Shown piece after piece: positions 32,425 through 56,989 of a DNA stretch of 64,000 nucleotides. This DNA comes from Henckelia pumila (lineage: Eukaryota; Streptophyta; Magnoliopsida; Lamiales; Gesneriaceae). The notes under the pieces are model-generated. The model searched no databases. It was not told the origin of the DNA and saw only the letters and a program-made list of their open reading frames with translations. A program made the position numbers and the translations under genes. The stretch covers positions 131,224,375 through 131,288,374 of the forward strand of contig NC_133121.1 in NCBI RefSeq assembly GCF_033568475.1, read 5' to 3'. The first letter of the stretch is position 1; each line of letters begins with the position of its first letter.

Positions 32425-34687
32425 GGGCACCAGTAATGGGAAGGTTTATAAAAATATTAACCTCCCCTCAAAAACCCCATCCCATTAGGGTTTTTTAATA
32501 AATTTTAAAAACCGGTCCCAAGATTTAATTTGGAACCGGTTTTAATTTTTTTTTTAAAAAAATATTTTGTAAATGCAAGAGGGGGAGCGCACTCCCCCTT
32601 GGGATGCGGGCGTGTTACACGCGTGCGTCAGGCAACAGGTAGCCTGCTGCCATTTTTTAAAACAAAAAAATTTTATTTTAAAAATTAAGATGAATTTTTT
32701 GATTTGTTTTCAAACGGCTCTTTATATATTTTTTTCATAATTTTTTTTAACATTCAACGGCTAGCTACTTGAATTTTTATTTTTATTTTTTTATTTTTTA
32801 TTTTATTCATAACGGCTACATAATGACAATTTTTTAAACTATAAATATACCAAACAATTTTTCATCAACTTCTATAATCATTTTCTCTATTTTTTTCATC
32901 TCTACTCTAAAATGTTTGAAGATCCAAATAATTTGAGCACCGATAGAATTATCGAATTCTTTAAAGAAGAGTTGTTGGATGATACTGATGAACAGATGAT
33001 GCTGGAGATCATTCAACAACAACAACAAATGCTACTTGAGGTAGCTCGGATTAGTTGCGAGGGATGACATAGAAAAAGGTATTTGAATCGAGATCGTGAA
33101 GCTGGACGTGCTCGTCTTGTCAATGAATACTTCAGTGATGCAGCGATATTTCCAATTGAAGTTTTTCGAAGATGATTTCGTATGCAAAAAGAATTATTTA
33201 TTCACATTGTCTAAGCCTTGCAAAAGCATTCTGAATATTTTCAGCTGAGGGTTGATGCAACAGAAAAAAAAAGGTTTGTCTCCACTTCAGAAATGCACGA
33301 CAACTATCCGTCAATTAGCTTATGGAGCCCCTGCCGACCATTATGATGAGTACCTACGAATTGGTGAAAAAACTTCCATCGATTGCCTATTCAATTTATT
33401 TCGATGTGTAATTGAGGTATTTGGGGCACAATACTTGAGAAAACCCAATGCTACTCACATCCAACGTTTACTTCAAATGCACGAGGAAAGACATGGTTTT
33501 CCTGGTATGTTGGATAGTCTTGATTGTATGCACTGGGAATGGAAAAACTGTCCGGTAGCTTGAAAATGTCAGTTTATTTGAGGAGATCATGGAGTCCCAA
33601 CAATTGTACTTGAAGCAGTCGCCTCTGCAGATTTGTGGATATGGCATGCCTTTTTCGGGGTCGCAGGATCGCGTAATAATATCAACGTGCTTAACGAATC
33701 ACCTTTATTCAACAACGTATTACAAGGAAATGCACCAGATGTTCATTTGGGATCTACCTGCAATGGGCCACTTTTTTTAAGAATTTTCCGTGCCCTCAAG
33801 ATATGAACAGAAAGAAGTTTAAAGAAAGACAAGAGGCTGCGAGGAAAGATGTCGAGCGAGCATTTGGAGTACTACAATCTTGTTGGGCAATAGTTAGAGG
33901 TCCCTGTCGATTTTGGTACAAGAACAAGTTGAAAGATATCATGCTAACATGTATAATTTTGCACAACATGATTATTGAGGATGAGGGAGATACAGTGAGT
34001 AATTGGTCAAATGAAGATGAAAACGATCCTCCCGCACAGATAAATCAAGGCTCAACAGAGGAATTTCGTGAGTACATAAGAAGAAATTGCGAGCTACGTG
34101 ATAATTAAGTATCTTCCTCATCAGCTTCGAGCCGACTTAATTGAACACATATGGGCATACTACGGCTGCGATGAGTAAAGAATAATTAATCAAGAAATTA
34201 TGGAGTATTTTATTATCATATGTTTTATTTTTTTGAAATATTCTGTATTTGCATGTGTTTTTGTATTTTGTAATTGTTATATGTTATTTTTAATTTCAAT
34301 TTATGTATGGTACTTTTTAAAATTATGTTATTTTGTTTTTATTAAAGTCTCTTTCAATATATCCAAAGTATCTGTTGCTTTTAAAGTTTTTTAAGTTTAT
34401 TTTTTTCAAATTATTTTTTTCATAAAAATCAATGTTTTAAAATTAAAAATACAAAATAATACTAAATTTAAAATTATAATTAATAATATATATGATAAAA
34501 GAAATAAATATAAATTAAATTATAAATAAATATAAGTGAATTGAGAGTGAGTCCCATAAAAAGATTGTTGAAGAGATTATTGATAACGGAGAGAGGTTTT
34601 AAAAAGAGATGGAGTTTTTAATTTTTGATGTGACAGTGACGTGGCAGAATAAAAACCCTGGGAAGAGGTTTAGCATTACAGATGCCC
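32425..34687 (+). mobile_element. PIF/Harbinger transposon A
   Basis: The element is 2,263 bp, flanked by TAA on both sides (32,422-32,424 and 34,688-34,690). Its termini GGGCACCAGTAATG and CATTACAGATGCCC are inverted. It encodes a degenerate PIF/Harbinger-type DDE transposase. A TAA/TTA target and such termini are diagnostic of this superfamily. The only recognisable coding content is the transposase; the second (Myb-like) reading frame of autonomous elements is not seen. Confidence 0.88.
32912..34108 (+). pseudogene. Degenerate PIF/Harbinger transposase (element A)
   Basis: Reads from an acidic N-terminus (MFEDPNNLSTDRIIEFFKEE) to ELRDN. Recognisable blocks are SPLQKCTTTIRQLAYGA, GFPGMLDSLDCMHWEWKNCP (first catalytic Asp region), FFGVAGSRNNINVLN (second Asp) and VERAFGVLQSCWAIVRG (catalytic Glu region). 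It is broken by stops near 33,065, 33,172, 33,211 and 33,561, a frameshift in the A-run at 33,262-33,272, and a deletion near 33,745 that removes the block after NAPDVH. The DDE triad regions survive, so decay is recent, but no functional protein can be made. Confidence 0.85.
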
Positions 34688-34690
34688 TAA

Positions 34691-35022
34691 CTATTCAAAT
34701 AAAAATAATATATTATTAAATTAAAAAAATGGGTACGCAAATCAACAGAAAAAGATAGGAGAGAGGAATGATTGTTGGTTGCTGTTGATTTGACGTGATT
34801 TGAAAAGTTTTTTTCTACCCAAAAAGCAGACCATCTGTATCACAACGCAACCGTACGTACATAAATGAGACTCAATGAAAACATACTCGCCTAATATTTC
34901 GTCTTGTACCTACGCACTACCCTGTTAATGTGACCATTTATTGATACATGCATGGTTTATTAAAAAATAATAAATATCATATGAGATATATTGATTAATA
35001 TAAATAGTTAGATATATATTAA
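34691..35022 (+). repeat. Duplicated flank F, copy 1
   Basis: About 330 bp between Harbinger A and B, repeated at 37,091-37,421 with high identity (for example GGAGAGAGGAATGATTGTTG and CGCCTAATATTTCGTCTTG). It is host DNA duplicated together with part of the transposon. Confidence 0.9.
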
Positions 35023-37087
35023 GGGCATCTGTATTGGGCCATGCTTCAAATTTTTTCAACTCTTTTCCTCCCGAATATAATTGCGTGGCCGCTAATTTTG
35101 TTTACTCTCTCTCTCCAAAAAACTCAACTCAGCCCTAATTTTGTTTTCTCCCCCCACTGTTCGTTGATCTTCCTCCCACGCCATAAATCCTCGCTATGTG
35201 CGTTCCAACATCTCCTCAGTCTTCCACCAGCGCTATCATCCTCAAAGTTTGTCTTGCCAACGTCGTATGTTTTCCTTTCCTCCGTCTCTTTCACGATGGA
35301 AAATGTATGTGCGCTCGGTTTTTTATTTTTTTTCAACTATTTACTTGTTTAGTTCTGTGATTTCCGGTGGCAAAGATATTGTAATCGAGCTTAGGTAGAA
35401 TTTTGATAAAGCGGAACTCGATTTTCAGCCCTCAAAAACCCCACCCCAATTACATGTGTGGGGTTTTCAATAAATTTTAAAAACTGGTCCCAAGATTTTG
35501 GGACCGGTTTTAATTTTTTTTTTTCAAATTATTTTGTAGATGGTAGCAGGTTTTAATTTTTTTTTTATTATTTTGTACATGCAAAAGTGGGGAGTGCTGC
35601 GGCGCGCGCATGTATAAGGCAGCAACGTGCTGTCTGTTGCCATTTTTTAAAACAAAAATATTTTTATTTAAAAATTGAGCTGAATTTTTTGACATGTTTT
35701 CAAACGGCTCTTTACATATTTTTTTTCATAATTTTGTTTTCAGTTTTTTTTATCATTCAACGGTTACTTGAATTATTTTTTTTATTTTTTCTTTTATTCA
35801 TAACGACTATATAATGACTATTTTTTCAACTATAAGTATACCAAAATTTTTTTCATCAACTACTATAATCAATTTATCTATTTTTTTTCATCTCTACTCT
35901 AAAATGTCCGAAGATCCAAATAATTTGAGCACCGATAGGATTATCGAATTATTTAAAGAAGAGTTGTTGGATGATACTGATGAATAGATCATGCTGGAGA
36001 TCATTCAACAACAACAACAACAACAAATTCTACTCGAGGTAGCTCGAATTATTTGCGAGGGATCACATAGCAGAAGGTATTTGAATCGAGATCGTAAAGC
36101 TGGACGTGCTCATCTTGTCAATGAATACTTCAGTGATGCACCGATATTTTCAATTGAAGTTTTTCGAAGACGATTTCGTATGCGAAAAGAATTATTCATT
36201 CGCGTTGTATAAGCCTTGCAAAATCATTCTGAATATTTTCAGTTGAGGGTTGATGCAACGGGAAAAAAAAGTTTGTCTCCACTTCAGAAATGCACGGTAC
36301 CTATCCGTCAATTAGCTTATGGATCCCCTGCCGACCATTATGATGAGTACCTACGAATTGGTGAAAAAACTTCCATCGATTGCCTATTCAATTTCTGTCG
36401 ATGTGTAATTGAGGTATTTGGGGAACAATACTTGAGAAAACCCAATGCTACTGGCATCCAACATTTACTTCAAATGCACGAGGAAAGACATGGTTTCCCT
36501 GGTATGTTGGGTAGTCTTGATTGTATGCACTGGGAATGGAAAAACTGTCCGATAGCTTGAAAAGGTCAGTTTACTCGAGAAGATCATGGAGTCCCAACAA
36601 TTGTACTTGAAGCAGTCACCTCTGCAGATTTGTGGATATGTCATGCCTTTTTCGGGGTCGCAGGATCGCGTAATGATATCAACGTGCTTAACGAATCACC
36701 TTTATTAAACAACGTATTACAAGGAAATGCACCAGATGTTCATTTTACAGTAAATGGCACACAATATACAAAGGGATACTATCTGACCGATGGGATCTAC
36801 CAGCAATGGGCCACTTTTTTAATAAAAATCAATGTTTTAATATTAAAAATACAAAATAATATTAAATTTAAAATTATAATTAATAGTATATATGATAAAA
36901 GAAATAAATTCAAATTAAATTATAAATAAATATAAGTGAATTGATAGTGGGTCCCATAAAAAGATTATTGAAGAGATTATTTATAACGGAGAGAGGTTTT
37001 AAAAAGAGATGGGGTTTTTAATTTTTGATGTGACAGTGACGTGGCAGAACAAAAATCCCGGGTAGAGGTTTAGCATTACAGATGCCC
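35023..37087 (+). mobile_element. PIF/Harbinger transposon B (chimeric left end)
   Basis: Flanked by TAA on both sides (35,020-35,022; 37,088-37,090). Left terminus GGGCATCTGTATTGG, right terminus CATTACAGATGCCC. From about 35,432 rightward it is a close homologue of element A. The first ~410 bp are unrelated to A beyond the terminus and include CT-rich, more GC-rich sequence that could be captured host DNA. Confidence 0.85.
35906..36822 (+). pseudogene. Truncated PIF/Harbinger transposase (element B)
   Basis: Closely similar to the transposase of element A, starting MSEDPNNLSTDRIIELFKEE. It has stops near 35,986, 36,210 and 36,558. It retains the block after NAPDVH that A has lost, with TKGYYLTDGIYQQWATF, but everything downstream of it, including the catalytic Glu region, is deleted and joined directly to the element's right end at about 36,823. 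It is inactive. Confidence 0.85.
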
Positions 37088-38296: not shown

Positions 38297-39206
38297 ATGG
38301 CTGAACTTCTCTCTACAGTTGTTTCTGATTATTTTTTCCGTCAAAAGGTCAAAATTAAGGTGCTGAGATCTCTGATTTTCCTTAACACGATATGCTTGCT
38401 GGGTGCGTATGTGGGGCTCCAACCATGGACGAGGATGAACCATGAGACTGCAACCATGTGATCCCAACCATGGACGTGGATGATAAAGCATGCGAGTTTC
38501 GTGGGGATTATACTGGCAACTTTCGTTTATAAAAGCATTGGAAGGATTCCAAATGAAGACCAAATAAAAGTGGCTGCACTGTCACTGGCCGGTTTCGTCA
38601 ACTGGACATGGCTTGGTGCACTGGTTCCCCATGTAGAGATGATGGCCCTTCCACCCATGCCGCCCCTTCTGGTGGAAGGAGTACCGAGCCATCATCTTCT
38701 TTTAGGCCAAATACTAATCCAGGACGGGTATTTATTTTCTCAAAAAGTCGATTTTTTCTTTTTTTTTTCGATTACTGAATTTTTTAAAATCAAATTTCAT
38801 ACTTTGTGCTCTTGTGGGCTTGTTACTACATTTGGTGTACAAATAAATTGGAGCGGCGGCTGCCGTGGAACATGGAGTATTTGCTCCTGTGCATGCTGGT
38901 GGCAGTCAGCTGGGCAATTGCTTGAAGTTGTTTATTTGGAAGAGGATCGATCTACTGGTTGACGTTGGTTAGTTTCTCTACGTACTCAAATATGTGTTCT
39001 TTGAATCTGAACGTAAAATATGTCACTAGCTAGTTTTCCCTGTTTCAGCTTCTTAGCGTAAATATCTCTTCCATATTGTATGCCCTCGCATATGAACATG
39101 AGCTTGCCACTGGCCGTGGTGTCGGATCTATAGCGTATTCGGATCTATCTTTCTGATTCTTTGCCTTCGGCCCACAGATGGCTTGGAAGGCCATCATATG
39201 TCATCT
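38297..39206 (+). pseudogene. U0: diverged, broken copy of the array gene family
   Basis: Starts MAELLSTVVSDYFFRQKVKI and continues through LLGAYVGLQPW. A short local duplication around CCAACCATGGACG introduces an in-frame TGA at 38,459-38,461, after which the frame stays open (HASFVGIILATFVYKSIGRI, WTWLGALVPHV). The later part equivalent to exon 4 (38,990-39,205) holds SVNISSILYALAYEHELATG but then a TGA (TTC TGA), and its donor site is ATATGT instead of GTATGT. It has no intron where U1-U4 have intron 1. Protein family not recognised; hydrophobic segments suggest a membrane protein. It marks the left edge of the array and is the most diverged member. Confidence 0.6.
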
Positions 39207-39410
39207 TTATTGTTTATCTATATGTAATTACAAACAATAATATATTTAATTTTGTTTACTGATCTTGGTGTAAAACTTGTACAAAAAAATAGTAGGACGA
39301 CTGTGAAAACGCACGGGGCAGGGAAGGCAACTGAATGAACACAGTAGCGATACGACTAGAGGTTTGAATTTCAAAACTGAAAGAAGGCAAACAGTTTTTT
39401 TCATTATTTG

Positions 39411-39590
39411 TCATGGAAATAATTTTTTTAAAATATAAACTATCGAATGTTCAATGTGAAAATTAATATTAATGTTGTATGCGTTTGATTGTTTTTGGAA
39501 TTTCTATTGATGATATAATGAAAATTTGCTCTTAAGTCTTAATTATAAATTATGTAACCAAAGAATATATATTTGTGTTTCTCAAAAAAA
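39411..39590 (+). repeat. Dispersed repeat shared with 10,133-10,310
   Basis: Lies between U0 and the first full unit of the tandem array. Same orientation as the copy near 10.2 kb; this one lacks a few bases after AATTTTTTTA. Confidence 0.7.
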
Positions 39591-39599
39591 TATTCATTT

Positions 39600-42585
39600 G
39601 ATTTTCAATGTATCAGAAACGTTTGTGCAAAAAAGATAAAAATAAAAATAAAATAAAATCCAACTTCTAAAAACAAGCGAATGTGACCCCGATTTTATCG
39701 TCGATCTCAATTCTACCGGTTAAATGCCAAAAAACATAAGAAATGATGAAGAAAAATCATTAATAGCAAATGAAACTTCAACATTACTACTAAAAATTTG
39801 AAAATGACAAGTGTTTTCCATAAAATAAAATAAAAATGTTGCTGGAAATTTGGAGGACTACGAAATGACTGAAAATACTTACTGGAAATCTAGAAAAATA
39901 CAAGAACAATGATGAAATTTTGAAAATGTACAGAAATATGCTGAATAATTCGAGCTTTTGGAGCCTGGAATTGTTGGATTGCTGGTTGTGTGTTGTATTC
40001 TGCATTAATGCCTCTTTTATATGCTGGTTCTCGAGTCAGTTCCTCAACTGCTCAACTCCATTAGCCCATTATTTGCAGCACTAACAGCCCCACTAACAGC
40101 TCTACTAACTCTTAACCGCTTTGACTTGGTATTCCCCTCTTTCTTTCTCAACTTGGTTCCTCGTGTGCCGAAGGTTCGCCGAATGCCCAACTTTACCATC
40201 CCACTACTTATAACTGATTTGAATTGATATTCTCCTCTTTTTCAATACAAACCAAAATTTACGTGGAAAATTCCCAAAAATTTATTAGGATAAAAACCAA
40301 GGGCAAGATAAAAAAATTTCACTATAATATTTGGAGAAGTACAACCTCACTCTGTGTTTTCAAAAAGACAGTATCTTGATACGGAAGAAAATTTATCTCA
40401 CTAATATGTATAGAAATACACTCAAATGTATTTGAATGCTTTAGAACAAGAGAAATAACTAATTGTGGGATGCTTTATTCTGATGGAGGGGAGCTGCCTC
40501 TGCTCGTAAACATTGAAAAAAAAAAATTCAATAAAATTTTCCTTCAATATTTGCGGTACATGTGGCTTCATCACCTGCCACCTTGTCCCCATGCATTATT
40601 AATCTGCCAACTTACCCTATTTTGAAAAGTCAAACCGACATTAACAGCCGTTGAACCTGCGGTTAGGACTTATTGTGATTATAAGCACCGCAATGTTGTC
40701 AAACTCAAGGTTGATTCATGTTTGATATGCTTATTTTAAGCTTTTTTTGTTTTTCTTTAGTTTTTAGTTTTCTGTTTGTTTTTAGCTTTCTAAGTTGTTT
40801 ATTTTAAGGTGCGGAGAGCTTTGGTCCTATTGAATGTGATGTGTCTCCTCGGTGGTTATTTGGAACTGCAACCATGGATCTGGAAGAAGAATTATGTGAG
40901 CATGGAGAGATTTTTTCTGGCCATGTCTGTGTACAAGAGTATCGATCGCATACCAGAGAAAGACGAGATCAAAGTTGGGGCACTGTTATTGGCATTTTTG
41001 TTTCAGTGGACATGGTTGATGTCGGCTCTGATTCCTATTCCTAATGATGTAGAGTTGCCACCAGAGGAGTTGACCCTTCCATCTATGCCTCCTCCGGTGA
41101 AAGCTGGAGTGCTCACATTTAATCTACATTTTCAGGATGAGTATGCTTTTAAAACACTTCTATTTTTCTATATTTTTTGTTGGGTTACAAAAAAAAAATT
41201 TTTAATTAAGTTTTAAATTGTGTGCTATTGCCGGAGCATTATTGCATTCGGCTTTTATCTGGAGTGAAAATGAGTGGAAGTGGTTGCCGTGAAAGATGGA
41301 ATCTTCACACCTCTGTATGTTGGTGACACTGATATGGGCCGTGGCTTCATCTTGCTTCGTTGAAGGAGGCTCAATGTTTTGGTTGACATTGGTTGGTTTT
41401 TCTACTGATCAAATATTTGTGTTGTTCTTCGAGTTATTTGAAATATATTTTCTCGTTGGAATTAATTGTCTGATATTTTTTGAATCTGGACGTAAAAATA
41501 TTGAAATATCGTGACAACATAGGTGTTTTCTCTTGCAGCTTCTCATAGTCAATATCTCTTCTATGGTATACGCCATGACATACGATATTAACTTACTTCT
41601 GCCGTTGGTATCGGATCTACAGGATACTCGGATCTGGTTTATGGACTCTTGGTGTTAGGGCCACAGAAGGCTTGGAAGGCCATCGTATGTCAGTACTTAT
41701 GTTGTCTTCTAAGCTATATAATCTATATATAATTATTACACACATTGTCCATCTTTATTTCATTCTTTTATATTTGCTCGTGATTCTACTAATCATCTTG
41801 GTGTATTTAGGTCAAATTATTGTTCAAGAAAATAGTGCTACAGCCCACAGAGACATAGAATAGTTGGCAAGGCCTGAGATGACGTGGGAAGAGATTCCCC
41901 AGCATTGCGGGTTCGATCCTCCTGTGGAGCATACTTTTTGCTGAAATATTGTTGTGGTATGCTCTGGAGGTTGGCCATGTTGCTTCCTTCTTTTGGTATC
42001 CGTCGCTCGTGCACATCCCTCGATTTAAGATCCGTATGAGTCAATGAGCCTCTGACTCATGTGGTATGCAATCAACTCTTTTAGAAAAAAATAGCGTTAT
42101 AACTTTGAAAAGGTACGGTGAGGCGATGAGTGATCTTTTCTTTTATTTTTTAAAAATCTTGGTTTTTTTTAGTTGTCTCATATATAATTTAATTTTTGTT
42201 GCAGTGGGATTGACTGGATAAGGGGTAGGGGAGACCAAAAATGAATGAAGGAGCGATTTGACCACTTTTTAGGGAGGTTTGCATGTCAAATTGTTGATTT
42301 TGGTGAATGGATGAAGGAGCGATTTGGCCACTTTTTGGAGAGTCTTGCATGTCAAAACTTATTTATTAATATTCGATATGCAATATATGTACTTATTCAG
42401 GAGTATGCATGATATGATGTATTTTATACCGATCCATCATTTGAGTAGGAAAACTAACTAACTATTTGAAACTCATTATTATGTTATATTTATTTTAAAT
42501 TTCTGTTATAGATCTATTAAGCATATATATCCATTTGCACATAAAAATTGACAAATTTTTTGTATTGGAGGCGTGCCAGGCACGT
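39600..42585 (+). repeat. Tandem array unit U1 (~2.95 kb)
   Basis: Units are counted from the conserved landmark AACTTCTAAAAACAAGCGAA (39,662; 42,610; 45,563; 48,521; 51,479). Spacings are about 2.94-2.96 kb. U1 is the most divergent of the four full units at its left end (poly-A/T variation and an additional AAAATAAAAT stretch). The left ~1 kb is non-coding; the gene lies in the middle. Confidence 0.85.
40809..41858 (+). pseudogene. U1 copy of the array gene, two lesions
   Basis: Exon structure follows U3: upstream coding segment ending 40,709, then exons 40,809-41,140, 41,211-41,391, 41,539-41,684 and 41,811-41,858. Exon 3 contains an in-frame TGA at 41,290-41,292 where U2-U4 have TGG or TGA-free sequence. 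Exon 4 is 146 nt rather than 147, because of a 1-base deletion near 41,585 that shifts frame. All splice-site dinucleotides remain intact, so the copy may still be transcribed but cannot encode the full protein. Exon 2 alone gives the open frame from RRALVLLNVMCLLGG onward. Confidence 0.65.
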
Positions 42586-45536
42586 TTGTGCCAAAAAAAT
42601 AAAAATAAAATGTAACTTCTAAAAACAAGCGAATGTAATCCCCGGTTTCATCGTCGGTATCAATTTTACCGGTTAAACGCCAAAGAACATAAGAAATAAT
42701 TAAGAAAAATCATTAATAGCAATTGAAACTTCAACATTACTACTAAAAATTTAAAAATGACAAGTGTTTGCAATAAAAAAATAAAAAATGTTGCCGAAAA
42801 TCTGGAAGAACTACGAAATGACTGAAAATATGTATTGGAAATCTAAAAAATTCAAGAACAATGATGAAATTTTGAAAATGTGCAGAAATATGCTGAAGAA
42901 TTCGAGATTTTTGAGCCTGGAATTGTTGGATTGTTGGTTGTGTTTTGCATGAATGCCCCTTTTATATGCTGGTTCTCGAGCCAGTTTCTCAACTGCTCAC
43001 CTCCATTAGTCAACTACTTGCAGTACCAACAGCCCCACTAACAGCTCTACTAACTCTTAACTGCTTTGACTTGGTCTTTCCCTCTTTCTTTCTCAACTTG
43101 GTTCCTCGAGTGCCGAAAGTTTCCCGAGTGCCCAGCTTTACCATCCCACTACTTATAACTATTTTGAATTGGTCTTCTCCTTTTTTTCAATAGACACCAC
43201 GATTTACGTGAAAAATTCCCAAAAAATTATTAGGATAAAACCAAGGGCAAGATCAAAAGATTTCACTATAATATTTGGAGAAGTACAACATCTCTCTGTG
43301 TTTCCAAAGAGACACTTTCTTAATACAAGAAAAAATCTATCTCCCAAATATATATAGAAATACACTCAAATGTATTTGAATGCTTTAGAACAAGAGAAAG
43401 AACTGATTGTGGGATGCTTTATTCTGATGGAGGGGAGCTCCCTCTGCTCGTAAACATTGAAAAAAAAATTCAATAGAATTTTCCTTCAATATTTGCGGTA
43501 CATGTGGCTTCATCACCTGCCATCTTGTCCCCAGGCATTATTAATCTTCCAACATACCCCATTTTGAAAATTCAAACCGACATTAACAGTCGTTGAACAT
43601 GCGGTTAGGACTTATTGTGATTATAAGCACCGCAATGTTGTCAAACTCAAGGTTGATTCATGTTTGATATGCTTATTTTAAGCTTTTTTTTGTTTTTCTT
43701 TAGTTTTTAGTTTTTTGTTTGTCTTTAGCTTTCTAAGTTGTTTATTTTAAGGTGCTTAGAGCTTTGGTCCTATTGAATGTGATGTGTCTCCTCGGTGGTT
43801 ATTTGGAACTGCAACCATGGATCTGGAAGAAGAATTATGTGAGCATGGGGGGATTTTTTCTGGACATGTCTGTGTACAAGAGTATCGATCGCATACCAGA
43901 GAAAGACGATATCAAAGTTGGGGCACTGTTACTGGCATTCTTGTTTCAGTGGGCATGGTTGACGTTGGCTCTGATTCCTATTCCTAATGATGTAGAGTTG
44001 CCACCAGAGGAGTTGACCCTTCCACCTATGCCTCCTCCGGTGAAAGCTGGAGTGCTCACATTTAATGTACTTTTCCAGGATGAGTATGTTTTTAAAACAC
44101 TTCTATTTTTCTATATTTTTTGTTGGTTTACAAAAACAAATTTCTTAATTAAGTTTTAAATTGTGTGCTATTGCCGGTGCATTATTGCATTCGGCTTTTA
44201 TCTGGAGAATGAGTGGAAGTGGCTGCCGTGGAAGATGGAATCTTCACACCTCTGTATGTTGGTGACACTGATATGGGTCGTGTCTTTATCTTGCTTCGTC
44301 GGAGGAGGCTCAATGTTTTGGATGACATTGGTTGGTTTTTCTACTGATCAAATATTTGTATAGTTCTTCGAGTTATTTGAAATATATTTTCTCGTTGGAA
44401 TTAATTGTCTGATATTTTTTGAATCTGGACGTAAAATTATTGAAATGTCGTGACAACATAGGTGTTTTCTCTTGCAGCTTCTCATAGTCAATATCTCTTC
44501 TATGGTATACGCCATGGCATACGAATATGAGCTTAATTCTGCCGCTGGCATCAGATCTACAGGATACTCTGATCTGGTTTATGGACTCTTGGTGTTAGGG
44601 CCACAGAAGGCTTGGAAGGCCATCGTATGTCACTTATGTTGTCTTCTAAGCTATATAATCTATATATAATTATTACACACATTGTCCATCTTTATTTCAT
44701 TTTTTTATATTTGCTCGTAATTCTACTAATCATCTTGGTGTATGTAGGTCAAACTATTGTTCAAGAAAATAGTGCTACAACCCACAGGGACATAGAATAG
44801 TTGGTAAGGCCTGAGATGACGTGGGAATAGAATCCCCAGCGTTGCGGGTTCGATCCTTCTGTGGGGCATACTTTCTGCTGAAATATTTTGGGGGTATGCT
44901 CTGGAGGTTGGCCATGCTGCTTCCTCCTTTTGGTATTCTTCGCTCGTGCACATCCCTTGATTTAAACTCCGCATGAGCCAATGAGTCTCTGACTCATGTG
45001 GTATGCAATCCCTTTAGGTGTCAACTCTTTTAGAAAAAAATAGTGTTATAACTTCGAAAAGGTACGGTGAGGCGATGAGTGATGTTTTCTTTTATTTTTT
45101 AAAAATCTTGGTTTTTTTTTAGTTGTCTTATATATAATTTAATTTTTGTTGCAGTGGGATTGACTGGATAAGGGGTAGGGGAGACCAAGAATGAATGAAG
45201 GAGCGATTTGACCACTTTTTAGAGAGATTTGCATGTCAAATTGTTGATTTTGGTGAATGGATGAAGGAGCGATTTGGCCACTTTTTGGAGAGTCTTGCAT
45301 GTCAAAACTTATTTATTATTATTCGATATGCAATATATGTACTTATTCATGAGTATGCATGATATGATGTATTTTATACCGATCCATCATTTGAGTAGGG
45401 AAACTAACTAACTATTTGAAACTCATTATTATGTTATATTTATTTTAAATTTCTGTTATAGATCTATTAAGCATATATATCCGTTTGCACATAAAAATTG
45501 GAATTTTTTTTGTATTGGAGGTGTGCCAGGCATGTT
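42586..45536 (+). repeat. Tandem array unit U2 (~2.95 kb)
   Basis: Highly similar to U3 throughout, including the non-coding left half. Gene copy at 43,752-44,795. Confidence 0.85.
43752..44795 (+). pseudogene. U2 copy of the array gene, one frameshift
   Basis: Exons 43,752-44,083, 44,154-44,330, 44,478-44,624 and 44,748-44,795, with an upstream coding segment ending 43,651. Exon 3 is 177 nt instead of 181: four bases are missing at TCTGGAGAATGAG (U3 has TCTGGAGTGCAAATGAG), shifting the frame. Exons 2, 4 and 5 are open and all GT/AG sites are present. A single event therefore separates it from coding capacity. Confidence 0.65.
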
Positions 45537-45736
45537 TGTGCCAAAAAAATAAAATAAAATGTAACTTCTAAAAACAAGCGAATGTAATCCCAGGTTTCAT
45601 CGTCGGTATCAATTTTACCGGTTAAACGCCAAAGAACATAAGAAATAATTAAGAAAAATCATTAATAGCAATTGAAACTTCAACATTACTACTAAAAATT
45701 TAAAAATGACAAGTGTTTGCAATAAAAAAATAAAAA

Positions 45737-46147
45737 ATGTTGCTGGAAATCTGGAGGAACTACGAAATGACTGAAAATATGTATTGGAAATCTAAAAAAT
45801 TCAAGAACAATGATGAGATTTTGAAAATGTGCAGAAATATGCTGAAGAATTCGAGATTTTTGAGCCTGAAATTGTTGGATTGTTGGTTGTGTTGTGTTCT
45901 GCATGAATGCCCCTTTTATATGCTGGTTCTCGAGCCAGTTTCTCAACTGCTTACCTCCATTAGTCAACTTCTTGCAGTACCAACAGCCCCTCTAACAGCT
46001 CTACTAACTCTTAACTGTTTTGACTTGGTCTTTCCCTCTTTCTTTCTCACCTTGGTTCCTCGAGTGCCGAAAGTTTCCCGAGTGCCTAGCTTTACCATCC
46101 CACTACTTATAACTATTTTGAATTGGTCTTCTCCTCTTTCTCAATAG
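45737..46147 (+). other. Open frame in the left half of U3, status unknown
   Basis: 136 codons starting MLLEIWRNYEMTENMYWKS and ending ITILNWSSPLSQ. Its second half (MLVLEPVSQLLTSIS...) stays open in all four units (40,021; 42,945; 45,917; 48,860 regions), but the first half is interrupted in the others by small indels. No domain recognised. It may be an upstream exon, part of an old LTR-like sequence, or chance. Confidence 0.2.
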
Positions 46148-46520
46148 ACACCAAAATTTACGTGAAAAATCCCCAAAAAATTATTAGGATAAAACCAAGG
46201 GCAAGATCAAAAGATTTCACTATAATATTTGGAGAAGTACAACCTCTCTCTGTGTTTCCAAAGAGACACTTTCTTAATACAAGAAAAAATCTATCTCCCA
46301 AATATATATAGAAATACACTCAAATATATTTGAATGCTTTAGAACAAGAGAAAGAACTGATTGTGGGATGCTTTATTCTGATGGAGGGGAGCTCCCTCTG
46401 CTCGTAAACATTGAAAAAAAATTTAATAAAAATTTCCTTCAATTTTTGCGGTACATGTGGCTTCATCACCTGCCACCTTGTCCCCATGCATTATTAATCT
46501 GCCAACATACCCCATTTTGA

Positions 46521-47752
46521 AAAGTCAAACCGACATTAACAGTCGTTGAACCTGCGGTTAGGACTTATTGTGATTATAAGAACCACAATGTTGTCAAACT
46601 CAAGGTTGATTCATGTTTGATATGCTTATTTTAAGTTTTTTTTTGTTTTTCTTTCGTTTTTAGTTTTCTGTTTGTTTTTAGCTTTCTAAGTTGTTTATTT
46701 TAAGGTGCTGAGAGCTTTGGTCCTATTGAATGTGATGTGTCTCCTCGGTGGTTATTTGAAACTCCAACCATGGATCTGGAAGAAGAATTATGTGAGCATG
46801 GGGGGATTTTTTCTGGCCATGTATGTGTACAAAAATATCGATCGCATACCAGAGAAAGACGAGATCAAAGTTGGGGCACTGTTACTGGCATTATTGTTTC
46901 AGTGGGCATGGTTGAGGTTGACTCTGATTCCTATTCCTAATAATGTAGAGTTGCCACCAGAGGAGTTGACCCTTCCACCTATGCCTCCTCCGGTGAAAGC
47001 TGGAGTGCTCAAATTTAATCTACTTTTTCAGGATGAGTATGTTTTTAAAACACTTCTATTTTTCTATATTTTTTGTTGGGTTACAAAAACAAATTTTTTA
47101 ATTAAGTTTTAAATTGTGTGCTATTGCCGGAGCATTATTGCATTCGGCTTTTATCTGGAGTGCAAATGAGTGGAAGTGGCTGCCGTGGAAAATGGAATCT
47201 TCACACCTCTGTATGTTGGTGACACTGATATGGGCTGTGGCTTCATCTTGCTTCGTCGGAGGAGGCTCAATGTTTTGGTTGACATTGGTTGGTTTTTCTA
47301 CTGATCAAATATTTGTGTAGTTCTTCGAGATATTTGAAATATATTTTCTCGTTGGAATTTATTGTCTGATATTTTTTGAATCTGGACGTAAAACTATTGA
47401 AATGTCGTAATAACATAGTTGTTTTCTCTTGCAGCTTCTTATAGTCAATATCTCTTCTATGGTATACGCCATGGCATACGAGTATGAGCTTACTTCTGCC
47501 GTTGGTATCGGATATACAAGATACTCTGATCTGGTTTATGGACTCTTGGTGTTAGGGCCACAGAAGGCTTGGAAGGCCATCGTATGTCACTTATATTGTC
47601 TTCTAAGCTATATAATCTATATATAATTATTACACACATTGTCCATCTTTATTTTATTCTTTTATATTTTCTCGCGATTCTACTAATCATATTGGTGTAT
47701 GTAGGTCAAACTATTGTTCAAGAAAATAGTGCTACAGCCCACAGGGACATAG
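46521..47752 (+). CDS. U3: unknown multi-exon, probably multi-pass membrane protein (5' end unresolved)
   Basis: Four exons fit together exactly: 46,705-47,036 (332 nt), 47,107-47,287 (181), 47,435-47,581 (147) and 47,705-47,752 (48, ending TAG). Together they make 708 nt with no stop. Introns are GT-AG, 70-150 nt and T-rich. An upstream coding segment ends at 46,604 (donor GTTGATT) and is open back to a TGA at 46,518, but has no ATG, so a further 5' exon is needed. Hydrophobic segments are RALVLLNVMCLLGGYLKL, ALLLALLFQWAWLRLTLIPI, the region from HLCMLVTLIWAVASSCFVGGG to WLTL, and LIVNISSMVYAMAY. A Pro-rich loop, LPPEELTLPPMPPPV, lies between the second and third, and the protein ends FKKIVLQPTGT. 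I do not recognise the family; I infer a small membrane protein of about 260 residues. It is the only array copy without a visible lesion. Confidence 0.6.
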
Positions 47753-47830
47753 AATAGTTGGTAAGGTGTGAGCTGACGTGGAAAAAAATTCTCCAGCGTT
47801 GCGGGTTTGATCCTCCTGTGGAGCATACTT
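47753..47830 (+). repeat. tRNA-like (SINE-like) sequence right after the U3 stop codon
   Basis: AGAATAGTTGGTAAGG resembles a pol III A box and GCGGGTTTGATCCTCC (U1, U2: GGGTTCGATCC) a B box, about 38 nt apart. It begins at the TAG stop codon of the last exon. The same sequence follows exon 5 in U1 (41,857-41,940), U2 (44,794-44,880) and U4 (50,693-50,775), so it predates the amplification. No tRNA cloverleaf can be drawn. A SINE supplying the 3' end is the favoured reading, but the ends are not defined. Confidence 0.35.
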
Positions 47831-48490
47831 CCTGCTGAAATATTGTGTGGATATGCTCTGGAGGTTGGCCATGCTGCTTCCTCCTTCAGGTATCCGTCGC
47901 TCGTGCACATCTCTCGATTAACTTTCGCATGAGTCAATGAACATCTGACTCATGTGGAATGCAGTCTCCTTCGGGGTCAACTCCTTTAGAAGAAAATAGT
48001 GTTACAACTGTGGAAAGGTACGGTGAGGCGGTGAGTGCTCTTTTCTTTTATTTTTTTATAATCTTGGTTTTTTTTTTTTGAGTTGTCTTATATATCATTT
48101 AATTTTTGTTGCAGTGAGATTGACTGGATAAGGGGTAAGGGAGACCAAGAATGAATGAAGGGGCGATTTGACCACTTTTTAGAGAGGTTTGCTGTCAAAT
48201 TGTTGATTTTGGTGAATGGATGAAGAAGCGATTTGGCCACTTTTTGGAGAGTCTTGCATGTCAAAACTTATTTATTAATATTTGATATGCAATATATGTA
48301 TTTATTCAGGAGTATGCATGAGATGATGCATTTTATACCTATCCTTCATTTGAGTAGAGAAACTAACTAACTATTGGAAACCCATTATTATGTTATATTT
48401 ATTTCGAATTTCTAGTATAGATCTATTAATCATATATATCCGTTTGCACATAAAAATTGGCAAATTTTGTATATTGCAGGCTTGCTAGGC

Positions 48491-51430
48491 ACGTTTGTGC
48501 CAAAAAAATAAAAATAAAATCTAACTTCTAAAAACAAGCGAATGTAATCCCCGGTTTCATCGTCGGCATCAATTTTACCGGTTAAACGCCAAAGTACATA
48601 AAAAATAATTAAGAAAAATCATTAATAGCAATTGAAACTTCAACATTACTACTAAAAATTTGAAAATAACAAGTGTTTGCAATAAAAAAAAATAAAAGAT
48701 GTTGCTGAAAATCTGGAGGAACTACGAAATGACTGAAAATATGTACTGAAAATCTAAAAAAATTCAAGAACAATGATGAAATTTTGAAAATGTGCAGAAA
48801 TATGCTGAAGACTTCAAGATTTTTTAGCCTTGAATTGTTGGTTGTGTTGTGTTCTGCATGAATGTCCCTTTTATATGCTGGTTCTCGAGTCAGTTTCTCA
48901 ACTGCTCACCTCCATTAGCCCACTACTTGAAGCACTAAAAGCCCCACTAACAGCTCTACTAACTCTTAATTTCTTTGACTTTGTCTTTCCCTCTTTCTTT
49001 CTATTCCTCGAGTGCCGAAAGTTCCCCGAGTGCCCAGCTTTACCATCCAACTACTTATAACTATTTTGAATTGGTGTTCTCTTTTTTTTCAATAGACACC
49101 AAGATTTACGTGAAAAATCCCCAAAAAATTATTAATGTAAAAAGCACGGGCAAAATCAAAATATTTCACTATAATATTTGAAAAAGTACAATCTCTCTTT
49201 GTGTTTCCAAAGAAACAAACTCTTAATACAAGAAAAAATCTATCTCACAAATATATATAGAAATACACTCAAATGTATTTGAATGCTTTAGAACAAGAGA
49301 AATAACTGATTGTGGGATGCTTTATTCTGATGGAGGGGAGCTCCCTCTGCTTGTAAACATTGAAAAAAATTCTCAATTGAATTTTTCTTTAATATTTGCG
49401 GTACATTTGGCTTCATCACTTGCCACCTTGTCCACATGCATTATAAATCTGCCAACATACCCCATTTTGTAAAGTCAAACCGACATTAACAGCTGCTAAA
49501 CCTGCGATTAGGACTTATTGTGATTATAAGCACCCCAATATTGTCAAACTCAAGGTTGATTCATGTTCGATATGCTTATTTTAAACTTTTTTTCCTTTGT
49601 TTTTAGTTTTCTGTTTGTTTTTAGTTTTCTAAGTTGTTTATTTTTAAGTGCTGAGAACTTTAGTCTTATTGAATTTGATGTGACTCCTCGGTGGTTATTT
49701 GGAACTGCAACCATGGATCTGGAAAAAGAATTATGTGAGCATGGGAGGATTTTTTCTGGCCATGTCTGTGTACAAGATTATCGATCGCATACCGGAGGAA
49801 GACGAGATCAAAGTTGGGGCACTGTTACTGGCATTCTTGTTTTAGTGGGCATGGTTGAAGGCGGCTCTGATTCCTGTTACTAATGATGTAGAGTTGACAC
49901 CAGAGGAGTTGGTCCTTCCACCTACGCCTCCTCCGATAAATGCTGGAATTCTCACATTTAATCTACTTTTCCAGGATGGTTATGTTTTTAAAACATTCCT
50001 ATTTTTCTATATTTTTTGTTGGGTTACTAAAACAAAATTTTAAATTAATTTTTATATTGTGTGCTATTGTCAGAGCATTATTGCATTCGGCTTGTATTTG
50101 GAGTGCAAATGAGTGGAAGTGGCTGCCGTGGATGATGGAATCTTCACACCTCTGTATGCTGGTGACACTGATATGGGACGTGACTTCATCTTGCTTTGTC
50201 GGAGGAGGCTCAATGTTTTGGTTGACATTGGTTGGTTTTTCTACTGATCAAATATTTGTGTAGTTCTTCGAGTTATTAGAAATATATTTTCTCGTTGGAT
50301 TTAATTGTCTGATATTTTTTGAATCTGGAGGTAAAACTATTGAAATTTCGGCATAACATAGGTGTTTTCTCTTGCTTCTTCTCATAGTCAATATCTTTTC
50401 TATGGTATATGCCGTAGCATACGAGTATGAGCTTACTTCTGCCGCTGGTATCGGATCTACATGATACTCTGATCTGATTTATGGATTCTTGGTGTTAGGG
50501 CCACAGAAGGCTTGGAAGGTCATCGTATGTCACTTATGTTGTCTTCTAAGCTATATAATCTATATATAATTATTACACACATTGTCCATCTTTATTTTTT
50601 TATTTTATATTTGCTCGTGATTCTATTAATCATCTTGGTGTATATAGGTCAAACTATTGTTCAAGAAAATAGTACTACAGCCCACAAGGACATAGACGAG
50701 TTGGTAAGACCTGAGGTGACGTGGAAAGAGATTCACCAGCGTTGTAGGTTCGATCTTCATGTGGAGCATATTTAATGCTGAAATATTGTGGGGGTATGCT
50801 ATGGGGGTTGGCCATGTTGTTCCCTCATTCAGGTCCTCGTCGCTCGTGCACATCCCTTGATTTAACCTTCGCATTAGCCAATGGATCTCTGACTCATGTG
50901 AAATGCGGTCCCCTTCATGGTCAACTCTTTTAGAAGAAAATAGTGCTACAACTGTTGAAACGTACGGTGGGCAGTGAGTGCTCTTTTCTTTTATTTTTTT
51001 AAAATCTTGTTTTTTTTTTAGTTCTCTTATATATCATTTAATTTTTGTTGCAGTAGGATTGACTGGATAAGGTGTAGGGGAGACCACGAATGAATGAAAG
51101 AGCGATTTGGCCACTTTTTAGAGAGGTTTGCACGTTAAATTGTTGATTTTGATGAATGAATGAAAGAGAGATTTGACCATTTTTTGGAGAGTCTTGCATG
51201 TCAAAACTCATTTATTAATATTCGATATGCAATATATGTACTTATTCAGGAGTATTCATGAGATGATGAATTTTATATTGATCCTTCATTTGAGTAGGAA
51301 AACTAATTAACTATTTGAAACCCATTATTATGTTATATTTGTTTTGAATTTCTACTATATATCTATTAAGCATATATATTTGTTTGCACATAAAAATTGG
51401 CAAATTTTTTGTGTTGCTGGCGTGCCTGAC
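48491..51430 (+). repeat. Tandem array unit U4 (~2.94 kb)
   Basis: Same order of landmarks as U1-U3 but more substitutions, consistent with older or unconstrained divergence at the right edge of the array. Confidence 0.85.
49649..50690 (+). pseudogene. U4 copy of the array gene, many lesions
   Basis: The exon 2 acceptor has lost a base (TTTTTAAGTGCTG instead of TTTTAAGGTGCTG). Stops occur at 49,681-49,683 and near 49,843. The exon 3 acceptor AAG has become AAT (near 50,049), and the exon 4 acceptor CAG is missing (CTTGCTTCTTCTC at about 50,370). A further TGA lies in exon 4 (TCT ACA TGA). Remaining similarity to U3 is still high at the nucleotide level. Confidence 0.75.
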
Positions 51431-51815
51431 ACGTTTGTGCCAAAAAAATAAAAATAAAAATAAAAATAAAAATAAAATTTAACTTCTAAAAACAAGCGAA
51501 TTTAATCTCCGGTTTCATCGTCGCTTTCAATTCTACCGGTTAAATGCCGAACATAAGAAATAATGAAGAAAAATTCATTAATAGCAATTGAAACTTCAAC
51601 ATTACTACTAAAAATTTAAAAATGACAAGTGTTTGCCATAAAAAAAGATGTTGCTGGAAATCTCGAGAAACTACGAAATGATTGAAAATATGTACTGGAA
51701 ATCTAGAAAAATTCAAGAACAATGATGAAATTTTGACAATGTGCAGAAATGCTGAAGAATTCGAGCTTTTGAGCCTGAAAATTGTTGGATTACTGGTTGT
51801 GTGTTGTGTTCTGAA
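51431..51815 (+). repeat. Truncated fifth unit (U5)
   Basis: Repeats the first ~385 bp of the unit, from TTTGTGCCAAAAAAATAAAA through TGGTTGTGTGTTGTGTTCTG, then breaks into unrelated sequence at GAATGAAATGATCC. This is the right boundary of the tandem array. Confidence 0.85.
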
Positions 51816-52572
51816 TGAAATGATCCATCTACACTTGCTCCATCGAAGAGGGTGTCCAACAAATATAACAACGTGAACGTAAACGAATAAAATGGTCTTT
51901 ATATAAATACTAGCATTAAAAATACTAGTTATAATAAAAATGATTTATATAGACATATTTTTCTATTTCTAAAATAAAAAAAATTTCATTCATATAAATA
52001 AAGATATTGTATAAAATTAAATATGTTCAAATTTTATAAAATTATATTAATGGTTTATTTGCAATAAATTTAATATTATTTATCGATTTTTATAAATCAA
52101 ATTGATAAGTAAAAATTATTTATATTGATTAATAAAATATTTTTTAAAAAATAGAATTATTTTAATTAAATATAAATGACACTCCACTATTAATTTTAAA
52201 AATTGAATTAAAAACCACAATTATGAATTAGAAAATTCAAAAATATCGAGAAAAAATTTACAAATATCAATAAATATCATGAAAAACAAATTTACAATGA
52301 ATACACACCTCTTCAAAATTTAATTTGACCGTCTAATCTGCAGCAAATGCGAATGGTAAAAAAAAATTAAAAAAAATAAGAAAAAGAAAGAAAAATAAGA
52401 AAAGAAATAAATGAAATACTTGTCATTAACTAGAGAGGGGAAGTACAGCTCGAGTCTACATATGTCAATTAATTTAATTTTAATATTATACAAGAGAATG
52501 CAGAGTCAACATACAAATAATTTTTTTTAAAAAAAAATAACTAAATTTCAACTACATAATCTTAATTTTTTA
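51816..52572. other. AT-rich intergenic DNA
   Basis: No coding signal; an A/G-rich patch at 52,360-52,410. Confidence 0.45.
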
Positions 52573-53297: not shown

Positions 53298-53566
53298 GAC
53301 CTCTCTTAGTACGGTATGGTTCGGGGACGAACCAAGCGGAAGCTGGTGGGCATGTGACGCCCGGGGCTGAAGAGGCAGGGAGTGATCGTCGGTGCCAAGA
53401 GGTTGCACGGACAATGAGCGGCTCCTGGTAGGCTTCTAGGCGGAGGGAGACATGAATGAACCGATCCCGTGCCGAAATGAGAGGGGATTCTGAGACTGTG
53501 TAGGTATTGGACTACATAGTTGAGGAGGGCTTAAAAGATTTCATATGTACTGCTCATATCAAGAAG

Positions 53567-53676
53567 GTGCATCTTCTTTTCGGAAGCTCATCACATAAGA
53601 ACTCCAAAGTTAAGCGTGCTTGACTTGGGGTAATTATAGGATGGGTGAACCCCTGGGAAGTTTCTCAGGGTGCGTG
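53567..53676 (+). ncRNA. 5S rRNA-like domain of Cassandra LTR2
   Basis: Same 5S-like core as LTR1, with GGATGGGTGAACC (one substitution/insertion in the conserved GGTGACC). Confidence 0.82.
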
Positions 53677-53929
53677 TGAGTGAGGACATAAGCACGCTGA
53701 AAAGACCCGTCTTGATACAAGGGAGCGTTTCAAATGGTATCGCAGGGAGTGATCGCCGGTGCCAAGAGGTTACACGGACAATGAGCGGCTCCTGGTAGGC
53801 TTCTAGGCGGAGGGAGACATGAATGAACCGATCCTGCCGGAATGAGAGGGATTCTGAGACTGTGTAGGTATGAGACTGCATAGTTGAGGAGAGCTTAAAA
53901 GATTTCATATGTACTATTCATATCAAGAA

Positions 53930-54039
53930 AGTGCATCTTCTTTTCGGGTTCTCATCACATAAGAACTCCAAAGTTAAGCGTGCTTGACTTGGGGCAATTA
54001 TAGGATGGGTGATCCCTTGGGAAGTTTCCCAGGGTGCGT
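53930..54039 (+). ncRNA. 5S rRNA-like domain of Cassandra LTR3
   Basis: Same core with GGATGGGTGATCC. Part of the truncated third LTR. Confidence 0.82.
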
Positions 54040-55170
54040 GTGAGTGAGGACATAAGCACGCTGGAAAGACTCGTCTTGATACAGTGGGTCGTTACAGAAG
54101 GTCTTTTCACCTCCAAGTTTCACAGCTATACTATCTGCAGTATCATGGAGCCCGTGCACAGTGGCTGTGATATATGCAAGTGACAGATAACCTGCATTCT
54201 CCAGAATTTTAACACGCTCCCTCATATCTCCAAGATACAACGCAACATGAAATTTGCTAATCACAAGCTTTGTATCAGCAATAACAATTGAGTGTTTGCT
54301 TAGTAAAGCAACAAAAGTCATATCTTGAGACCAAACGACATACCTAACTGCAGGAGTTTGAAGACCCCCAACAACATTCCTTCGTTGGAGATCAAATATG
54401 ACAAACCTGTCCTCTGCTCTATAGAATAGATTTTCAGTGCCCGCGAAGAATATAGCATCAGTAGCAATTGGAAGAGCACACTTTTTTACTATACCATTTT
54501 TCAGGTTCTTGACCAAGACTTGATTGCTGCTCTTCTCAAGCACAGCAAACCTATTTTGGGTAACAAACATTGCTGACCCCCCAACACCTCTTTTTGCCTC
54601 TCGCATTGTATTGACTCCACCACAGCTAGCTGTCTTTCCGAATAACATAGAGCTCATATGATCTCCCATCCACATCTGACAAGACCAAGACAGCATTCCC
54701 AGTAGGACTGTAAGACAGAGTTCGAGGCCTTTGATTTAAAGTATGAGAACCAGGTCCCAGGATTGGCATCATTCGAACATCTTTATGAGTTGAATAGTCG
54801 AACAAACAGAGAAATCTATCCTTGAAAAAGATCACCAAAAGGCAGGGCGCACTCTCTCCAACTTGAAAACAATCATGCCATTAACATGACCAGCAGCCAA
54901 AAGACTTATCTCATGGTGTGCTGATAGGATCCCTAACTGGTCATGCTCCCTACTAAACGGATGCAGGAAAGTTCCTTTTGTTGCGTCCCAAACTCTGATA
55001 CTCATGTCTTCAGAACTTGAAACAAATGATGTCCTGCCTTGCAGTTGCATGAAATAAAACATATGACACGTCATTCATGTGGCCTCTTAATGTGTCCACC
55101 TCCCTTCTCTCCACACCTTAGACCAAATAAATCACACATCAGCCCCTCAAGTCTGACACTTAATGACTTA

Positions 55171-55413
55171 GGCATTGTTTGGTTTGATGCATTATTAATA
55201 TATGTATAACTTATCCCAATCAATTTTGCCTTATTTTTGTCATATTATTTATCTATTTATTAATTAATAATTTTACATCAATTAAATCAAATAAATTATA
55301 ATCTATCTATCAAATCAAATAATGTATTAACTATTTTTTCTTATTTATTTTTAATTTACATTATATTACTTATCTATGGATTACTTACCCTATCACTCAA
55401 ACCAAACGGTGCC
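55171..55413 (-). mobile_element. Tourist-like MITE, family 2, copy 3
   Basis: 243 bp, target duplication TTA on both sides (55,168-55,170; 55,414-55,416), termini GGCATTGTTTGGTTTGA and CAAACCAAACGGTGCC. It lies in an intron of alpha-COP copy 2; copy 1 has the uninterrupted site near 60,070, so insertion followed the duplication. Confidence 0.85.
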
Positions 55414-56780
55414 TTATACAACTAAAGGAATCCATGATCATGAGATATGCTCAAAAGATAAAATGAATCTGATAGAAATAAATCACAATAGGCCTGTTAT
55501 ATGAAAATCCAGTGAAATCTAGATTCAGTACCCTGGTCATATTGGCAAGGAAAAAGAATCTAACTCTCTTTGATCAGAGAAACTACCAAATTCTTAAAAT
55601 TTTAATCGATGGCAGCATTATGCCATCAAAACAGATAAAAGAGATGAGTTCAGGGTAAATATTCACATAGTTAATGTGCTAAAATGTAGCTGGCGATCAT
55701 CCAAATACACAACCTAACAAATTTTGTACACAACATCACCAAGTCGGCCAATCTCTCGCTGCTCTATATGCTTTCTCATTAATTGATAACATGTAAATTG
55801 GAAATCCACCTTCCTTTTGCAGCTCCCTATGAAACTTCAGCAAACATATAATTTCATAAAACGACAATCCAAAAATGGCACATATCAGAAACCTTAGCAC
55901 TAGATTATAGCAAAAAGGTTAGAAAAATGATAACGAAAAGTAGAAGATTTCGATATGTCAACCACTTTTTTATGCTACAGATGAACACAATGTCAAGCAC
56001 TACATGAATGTCTACACTCTACACGAATATATATTTAGGCATCGTCATGTGTCATTCTAAAAGGTACTTCAAGGCTACAACAACCAAAGGGCAGTGGCCC
56101 ATACCTTCCATTCTACCGATTTTAATTTGCCAGGCTTCTGCATAAACTACGACACGAAGAGTAGGATGGAAAGAAGCCCACTTAGCCCCTAGATAATAGC
56201 CTTCAAAACAACCTAAGAAAGGATGACCGGCCTTGCAAGAATTGTCTGTATCCATTTGAGACAGTTGTAGTATGACACCAACATCCCAAATACGAATAAA
56301 ACGGCCTAAGGATGCTGAAACAAGCAAGTTTTCTTTGGGGTGGAACGATGCACACGCCACAGCATCCTTGTGCACATTCAACACATAAATGCAAGTTTGG
56401 GACTGCCAATCCCATATTCTAACTATCCGATCATCACTTGCAGTCTTGCACTAACAATCCAGTGATACTTGTGATGAAATTGAACTGTTAGGATATAATC
56501 AAAATGACCAAGAAGAGTAAACAGACACCTACGTAATCTGTAATTCCACACCTTGATCTTGAAATCATCACCTGAAAATCAATATTTTGGTATAAACAAG
56601 AATGATGCATCTCAATACAAGTGTAGAATAAACATTAAAAACAGAAGCCGATTTAAAAGCAACACAAAAACATTTTCAACATTATATTCTATAATCTTGA
56701 TTGAAATTGAGTTCAATCACAGATCCCTGAAACCAAATGATCGATGAGATTACAACTTAATAACTTATTATATACTAAGG

Positions 56781-56872
56781 TAGTGTTTGCAACATCTAAA
56801 AATAAGTGATTATGGAGATTTGTTAAGAGAATCTTCATAATCACTTATTTTTAGAGGTTGCAAACACTAACT
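56781..56872. mobile_element. 92-bp foldback MITE
   Basis: Two ~40-bp arms are near-perfect inverted complements (AGTGTTTGCAACATCTAAAA and TTTTAGAGGTTGCAAACACT, both extending through AATAAGTGATTATG) with a ~10-bp loop. A longer element with related AGTGTTTGCAA termini lies at 57,606-57,950. Confidence 0.8.
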
Positions 56873-56989
56873 AACTTAGATAGATAAAAATTTATCAGAA
56901 CGATATAAAATAAATTTTTTGTCAAACATCTAGTATATAAAAATATATTCAATTTTTCTTAATTCTATGTAAAAAGTAATGAATTTTTT

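Follow-up and report, generated by a model that had tools for sequence, protein, structure and literature searches.

Copies of a hydrophobic-protein gene in a tandem array of Henckelia pumila are probably retroelement-truncated pseudogenes

A stretch of 64,000 nucleotides from Henckelia pumila (NC_133121.1, here C2; C2:131224375-131288374, referred to as the window, whose numbering is used unless a contig is named) contains a tandem array that repeats a multi-exon gene in ~2.95-kb units. We consider it highly probable that this array is a row of retroelement-truncated tandem pseudogenes, which would have arisen by retroelement-assisted duplication of a once-genuine gene through unequal recombination between long terminal repeats (LTRs). 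Even a clean tandem array whose exons join in phase is not necessarily a selected gene expansion, and from the junctions of this one it can be read, step by step, how LTRs would have helped to amplify a gene that was already broken.

Results

Organisation of the array

A repeat search of the window returned four copies of the exon-bearing segments, which follow each other at 2939, 2957 and 2943 nt; a portion of the ~1-kb spacer occurs five times. This confirms the tandem array of ~2.95-kb units that had been described from the letters of this DNA alone (the sequence-only reading). Of the four units and truncated fifth listed there, each said to carry the gene, the four units (U1-U4) indeed contain it, but the fifth, partial copy, which reaches 51819, is LTR sequence with no exon. 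The parts follow each other in the order LTR-gene-LTR-gene-LTR-gene-LTR-gene-LTR, i.e. four gene copies on the plus strand are enclosed by five LTR blocks on the minus strand. A diverged paralogue, U0, lies alongside.

The gene remnants extend over 40641-41858 (U1), 43583-44795 (U2), 46536-47752 (U3) and 49486-50695 (U4). In U3, exons 2-5 (46705-47036, 47107-47287, 47435-47581 and 47705-47752; 332, 181, 147 and 48 nt) join in phase across GT-AG introns into an open frame of 235 codons plus stop, as had been noted before. The exon lengths proposed as common to the units hold for 13 of the 16 exons of U1-U4; the deviating ones are exon 4 of U1 (146 nt), exon 3 of U2 (177 nt) and exon 2 of U4 (331 nt). 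Among U1-U4, U3 is the only copy with an open exon 2-5 frame. U1 (exons at 40809-41140, 41211-41391, 41539-41684 and 41811-41858) is interrupted in exon 3 by a TGA (41290) and lacks 1 nt of exon 4, and U2 (43752-44083, 44154-44330, 44478-44624 and 44748-44795) lacks 4 nt of exon 3. U4 carries two stops in exon 2 (TGA 49681, TAG 49843) and one in exon 4 (TGA 50462); its exon 2 has no donor left, and exons 3 and 4 have no acceptors.

Upstream of exon 2, every unit contains a 69-nt stretch (40641-40709 in U1, 43583-43651 in U2, 46536-46604 in U3) that was overlooked in the sequence-only reading. It comprises 23 codons without an ATG, ends in GTCAAACTCAAG|GT in phase with exon 2, and begins directly at the LTR-2 terminus CCGACA in all four units. 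Its assignment as a remnant of exon 1 rests on this position, on the splice site and on by-eye likeness to exon 1 of the copies further downstream. A start codon is absent from the first exon of all four units because LTR-2 ends inside exon 1; an ATG within exon 2 might serve as a start. At the other end, the 48-nt exon 5 runs into a short interspersed element (SINE), and its stop codon TAG lies within that element. A possible donor (in U3 and U4) and a possible acceptor after the SINE, both recognised by eye, hint at a sixth exon in the ancestral gene.

U0 (38297-39210, plus strand; delimited by tblastn pieces and sequence reading) has an ATG, and its stops lie in exons 2, 3 and 4, the exon-2 TGA being in-frame within a short duplicated stretch. 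By eye, its exons 1 and 2 are fused (38297-38731), with intron 1 exactly absent and introns 2 and 3 kept. It had been taken for a founder-like copy. Its gene pieces share 66-74% identity with U2 and U3, in line with a diverged paralogue, but the spacer after it is part of the array and 87-91% identical; we dropped the founder role because the gene part is far more diverged than the adjoining spacer.

The spacer consists of LTR fragments

The ~1-kb spacer is composed of two fused LTR fragments, LTR-1 and LTR-2, each of which is a dispersed repeat in the 885-Mb genome (133 contigs). In the block separating U2 from U3 (45482-46535), delimited by dispersed genomic copies and by comparison of its ends with LTR pairs, LTR-1 (45482-46142) is fused to LTR-2 (46143-46535). 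A search with the LTR-1 stretch 45545-46142 gave 846 first-look candidates; 36 of the best 40 that were scored lay outside the array, and matches extended back to 45483. Genomic copies of LTR-1 are often paired, ~1.9 kb apart. Two such pairs (L033 and L029) have the termini TGTTTG...CAAACA and 5-bp target site duplications (TSDs), CCGAT at L033 and CCATC at L029. At another locus (L030, C3:174689000-174698999), five LTR-1 copies follow one another at ~1.9 kb, as if a short LTR element had formed a tandem chain with shared LTRs.

LTR-2 (query 46143-46535) belongs to a second LTR family, with 592 candidates and again 36 of the best 40 scored outside the array. At L040 it occurs as a 472-bp repeat pair with the termini TGTTG...CGACA, and an LTR pair is likewise present at L044. 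The intact relatives of both fragments thus show TG...CA termini and paired LTRs. On the minus strand of L040 the LTR is adjoined by AGTGGTATCAGAGCC, which we take to be a primer site of the Met-tRNA type; on this basis LTR-2 would be copia-like. LTR-1 and LTR-2 both lie on the minus strand, and their promoters would therefore point away from the gene.

The five blocks differ in a way that bears on the origin of the array. The left one (39618-40640; unit homology from about 39618-39644, LTR-2 terminus at 40635-40640) lacks approximately the first 50 bp of LTR-1 and is fused to LTR-2. The right one (51381-51819, the truncated fifth unit of the sequence-only reading) has the LTR-1 start and lacks anything past ~440 bp. 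The three internal blocks (42532-43582 between U1 and U2, the block described above, and 48441-49485 between U3 and U4) have both the start and the fusion to LTR-2. Partial LTRs at the ends of the array and hybrid LTRs inside it are the pattern expected if crossing-over took place within the part of LTR-1 that the blocks share.

A SINE in the last exon of all four units

The element in the last exon of U3 occupies 47737-47988 (plus strand). A search with 47735-47990 gave 1280 first-look candidates, and 37 of the best 40 scored were outside the array, at 84-87% identity. Its length is nearly constant: all 40 scored matches span at least ~230 of the 256 query bases, and they lie on contigs C1-C4 and on smaller ones. 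Among 20 copies that were fetched, 17 have TSDs of 12-20 bp and three have none; shuffled flanks gave an equal length in two of the 17 (L066 and L076), and three copies with one common TSD are probably copies within a larger repeat, so that not all 17 are independent. In the array, all four SINEs are bordered by 17-bp TSD pairs. The left TSD reads AAGAAAATAGTGCTACA and is altered at one position in U4; compared with it, the right TSD has a single deviating base in U3 and U4 and more than one in U1 and U2. The TSDs lie at 41826-41842 and 42085-42101 in U1 (SINE 41843-42084), at 44763 and 45034 in U2 (44782-45033), at 47720-47736 and 47990-48006 in U3, and at 50663-50679 and 50934-50950 in U4 (50680-50933), all on the plus strand and with approximate borders in U1, U2 and U4. 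An A-box-like site (TAGAATAGTTGG, at 47750 in U3) and a B-box-like site (GGTTCGATCC, at 47803) are present in the SINEs of the units, as judged against what we take to be the RNA polymerase III consensus. Going by its dispersal, its TSDs and these sites, the element is a tRNA-type SINE.

The SINE is more diverged than the rest of the unit, which could be counted in favour of an array that serves as a source of small RNAs or regulatory transcripts, with the protein being irrelevant. Small-RNA silencing is common for tandem repeats rich in retroelements. The sequence itself gives no reason to invoke a small-RNA role, however, and we regard this explanation as highly improbable.

One cluster with three arrays

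Genome searches place the family in one spot. An exon-2 query from a second array of the family, array C (see below), at E values up to 10, gave 29 matches, of which 13 had E below 0.004 and all fell within C2:131262854-131309024; the remaining 16 had E of 0.055 or more. One copy is split, and the 13 matches therefore represent 12 copies. All detected exon-2 copies lie in this 46-kb cluster, which holds three tandem arrays. With exon 2 of U0, all 11 matches were within the cluster. The exon-4 query found five copies, in the window, and the exon-3 query nine matches in the cluster plus one elsewhere at E = 0.1. In these searches the best candidates were scored and the assembly is possibly incomplete, so that a distant living copy is conceivable.

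Array B lies downstream of the window's array (array A) at C2:131293262-131302629 (L008, L009) and has four copies in ~2.6-kb units that are 92-93% identical. Its 650-bp LTR, which sits in exon 1 of each unit, is dispersed as well: there were 1331 first-look candidates, and 36 of the best 40 scored were located beyond the array, with identities of 90-93%. At the left end of array B, the LTR stands between ATGGCCGA and GCCGAGAAAGC; judging from the 5-bp duplication GCCGA that flanks it, the LTR is inserted in exon 1 just past the start codon. Exon 2 is frameshifted in all four copies. By eye, exon 3 of array B is interrupted by an antisense gag-like stretch. Array C, also downstream (C2:131305330-131310063; L009, L010), consists of three copies and a partial fourth in ~1.35-kb units, ~88% identical. 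Exon 1 opens with ATGGCC in all three copies and ends before AAG|GTTAAG in the array-C copies C2 and C3; all three have a stop in exon 3, and the acceptor of intron 1 is altered. Damage is thus found in 12 of 12 family copies, U3 being the least affected.

The alternation of LTRs and gene pieces also raises the question whether a non-autonomous LTR element picked up a gene fragment and took it along as cargo (transduplication). Each gene piece is flanked by LTRs of the same family in the same orientation, and array B likewise alternates LTRs with gene pieces. We judge such cargo unlikely nevertheless, since the introns are kept, gene copies were found in the one cluster only, and the TSD of array B's own LTR inside exon 1 favours insertion into a gene; moreover, no primer-binding site or polypurine tract was seen by eye on the gene side of the array-A LTRs, for which no formal search was made.

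Selection on the copies

Exons and introns of U1-U4 have diverged to a similar extent (0.044-0.093 and 0.035-0.076, respectively), with no difference in any of the six pairs (Fisher p 0.24-0.88). Among the 76 private changes of these copies 26 are silent, versus 21.9 expected for unconstrained change with an identical mutation spectrum (P = 0.17), and four are nonsense versus 5.3 expected without constraint. No coding constraint was detected between U1-U4, the power being limited to four copies.

The subfamilies behave differently. For exon 2, the ratio of nonsynonymous to synonymous divergence (dN/dS) is 0.25-0.42 in the seven computable comparisons (Fisher p 0.0045 to 1.5e-5), namely U1, U2 and U3 versus U0, U3 versus the array-C copies C1 and C3 and the array-B copy B4, and C1 versus B4. 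The same sequences recur in these comparisons, which are therefore not independent. With silent sites close to saturation (dS 0.74-2.2), the ratios are rough, and their bootstrap upper bounds are 0.54 to 0.73; U0-C1 and U0-B4 are saturated (silent differences 0.77 and 0.81). Exon 4 gave 0.42 for U0 versus U3 (p 0.028) and 0.38 for U0 versus U2 (p 0.0097). Within arrays, the ratio is 0.57 for C1-C3 (p = 0.21) and 0.80 for exon 2 of U2-U3 (p = 0.75). The sequence-only reading had asked for dN/dS between units and homologues, and the answer is split, with change close to neutral from unit to unit and a clear coding bias once units are set against homologues. From the ratio of ~0.3 between subfamilies we infer that the ancestral multi-exon gene was genuine.

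The encoded protein

The U3 exon 2-5 product has four hydrophobic stretches (residues 1-22, 54-77, 112-130 and 145-184) and a proline-rich loop near residues 78-98, in agreement with the several hydrophobic segments and the loop seen earlier. Profile searches, which had been suggested as a check, found no significant match for it in Pfam (best E = 2.4) or PDB (best E = 0.77) and none in NCBIfam; in these databases it matches no known family. The structure prediction for the exon-2 product (mean predicted local distance difference test score 53.7) was too poor for a fold search. The most one can say is that the gene would have encoded a multi-pass membrane protein. Living members of this unnamed gene family could be sought in other plants.

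Discussion

Origin of the array

We propose the following course of events. A genuine gene for a hydrophobic protein would once have existed, as the constraint between subfamilies suggests. In the ancestor of U1-U4, a minus-strand copia-like LTR-2 came to end inside exon 1, a position at which the start codon is gone and the native promoter was very likely removed too; the TSDs indicate that a SINE had inserted into the last exon of the same ancestral copy. This copy would have stood between two minus-strand LTR-1 fragments, the left one joined to LTR-2 and without its own start, the right one ending after ~440 bp. Unequal crossing-over in the few hundred bp common to both fragments would have duplicated gene plus LTR, and further rounds would have produced the alternating array, whose copies then drifted without coding constraint detectable within the power of four copies. 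The neighbouring array B, with its TSD-flanked LTR in exon 1, can be read as showing the same thing.

Several points weigh against this pseudogene reading. In U3 the frame is open from exon 2 to exon 5 and the splice sites are intact. For U1-U4, pairwise dN/dS is below 1 (0.56-0.78), significantly so in no pair (Fisher p 0.08-0.41), and when U1-U3 are taken by themselves, their 37 private changes include 14 silent ones versus 10.2 expected (P = 0.11); the units may have been under weak or recently relaxed constraint. The crossover is deduced from one assembled sequence, and the first duplication could have taken another route. The open frame of U3 and the nominally low ratios, together with the constraint on the ancestral gene and the presence of three separate tandem arrays side by side, would also fit the view of the sequence-only reading, a lineage-specific working gene family with copy number or sequence diversity under selection. 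That view is not supported: exons have diverged as much as introns, private changes fit no constraint, all 12 copies are damaged, the exon 1 of U1-U4 lacks a start codon, a SINE sits in the last exon of all four, and the amplified spacer is retroelement sequence. We therefore consider a working family very unlikely.

More tentatively, the pseudogene reading may be extended to the whole cluster. It is possible, though doubtful, that an unnamed plant membrane-protein family underwent three separate amplifications at a single locus (~2.95-, 2.6- and 1.35-kb units), that in two of the arrays exon 1 had been hit within its first codons by an LTR, from a different family each time, and that the gene family was then lost, amplification helped by retroelements and gene death forming a local cycle. 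If so, the three-fold amplification and loss possibly marks loss of the gene's function in this lineage.

Neighbouring features

Upstream of U0, pieces of a Plant_tran/DDE transposase lie at 33695-36929; this transposon is presumably Harbinger-like. Further upstream are a SCAI-like exon (16150-16716, minus strand) and a gene for a RING-finger protein (25315-26343). Downstream of the array there are two partly duplicated coatomer-alpha-like gene pieces (53998-60020), with a match to the second beta-propeller of COPA/B at 58808-59629 and other pieces recognised by eye, alongside a 364-bp tandem repeat (53375-54083).

Comparison with known systems

The underlying process is ordinary; here it is unusually readable and acts on an unnamed gene family. 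A literature search covering tandem gene arrays, unequal exchange and solo LTRs returned no matching paper. The closest parallel we cite is the banana RGA08 cluster of nucleotide-binding leucine-rich-repeat genes, for which changes in gene number by unequal recombination between intergenic repeats are reported (PMC3017797). The two are alike in that crossing-over between duplicated non-coding stretches of ~1 kb alters gene number. They differ in that the banana genes are under diversifying selection and the authors found no evidence that LTR retrotransposons were involved, whereas the array described here consists of damaged copies and its repeats are LTR fragments.

Compared with Copia-type LTR retrotransposons, LTR-2 is alike in its TG...CA termini and in the AGTGGTATCAGAGCC beside the LTR at L040; the array differs in holding an LTR fragment only. 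As to the SINE, Au SINE, a tRNA-derived plant element, is reported from wheat introns and, in some cases, exons, in a paper whose introduction describes SINEs in general as ending A- or AT-rich (PMC5787218). The element found here resembles such plant SINEs in being short and dispersed, in its A/B-box-like sites and TSDs and in its insertion into a gene, but it ends in a short T run instead of an A- or AT-rich tail.

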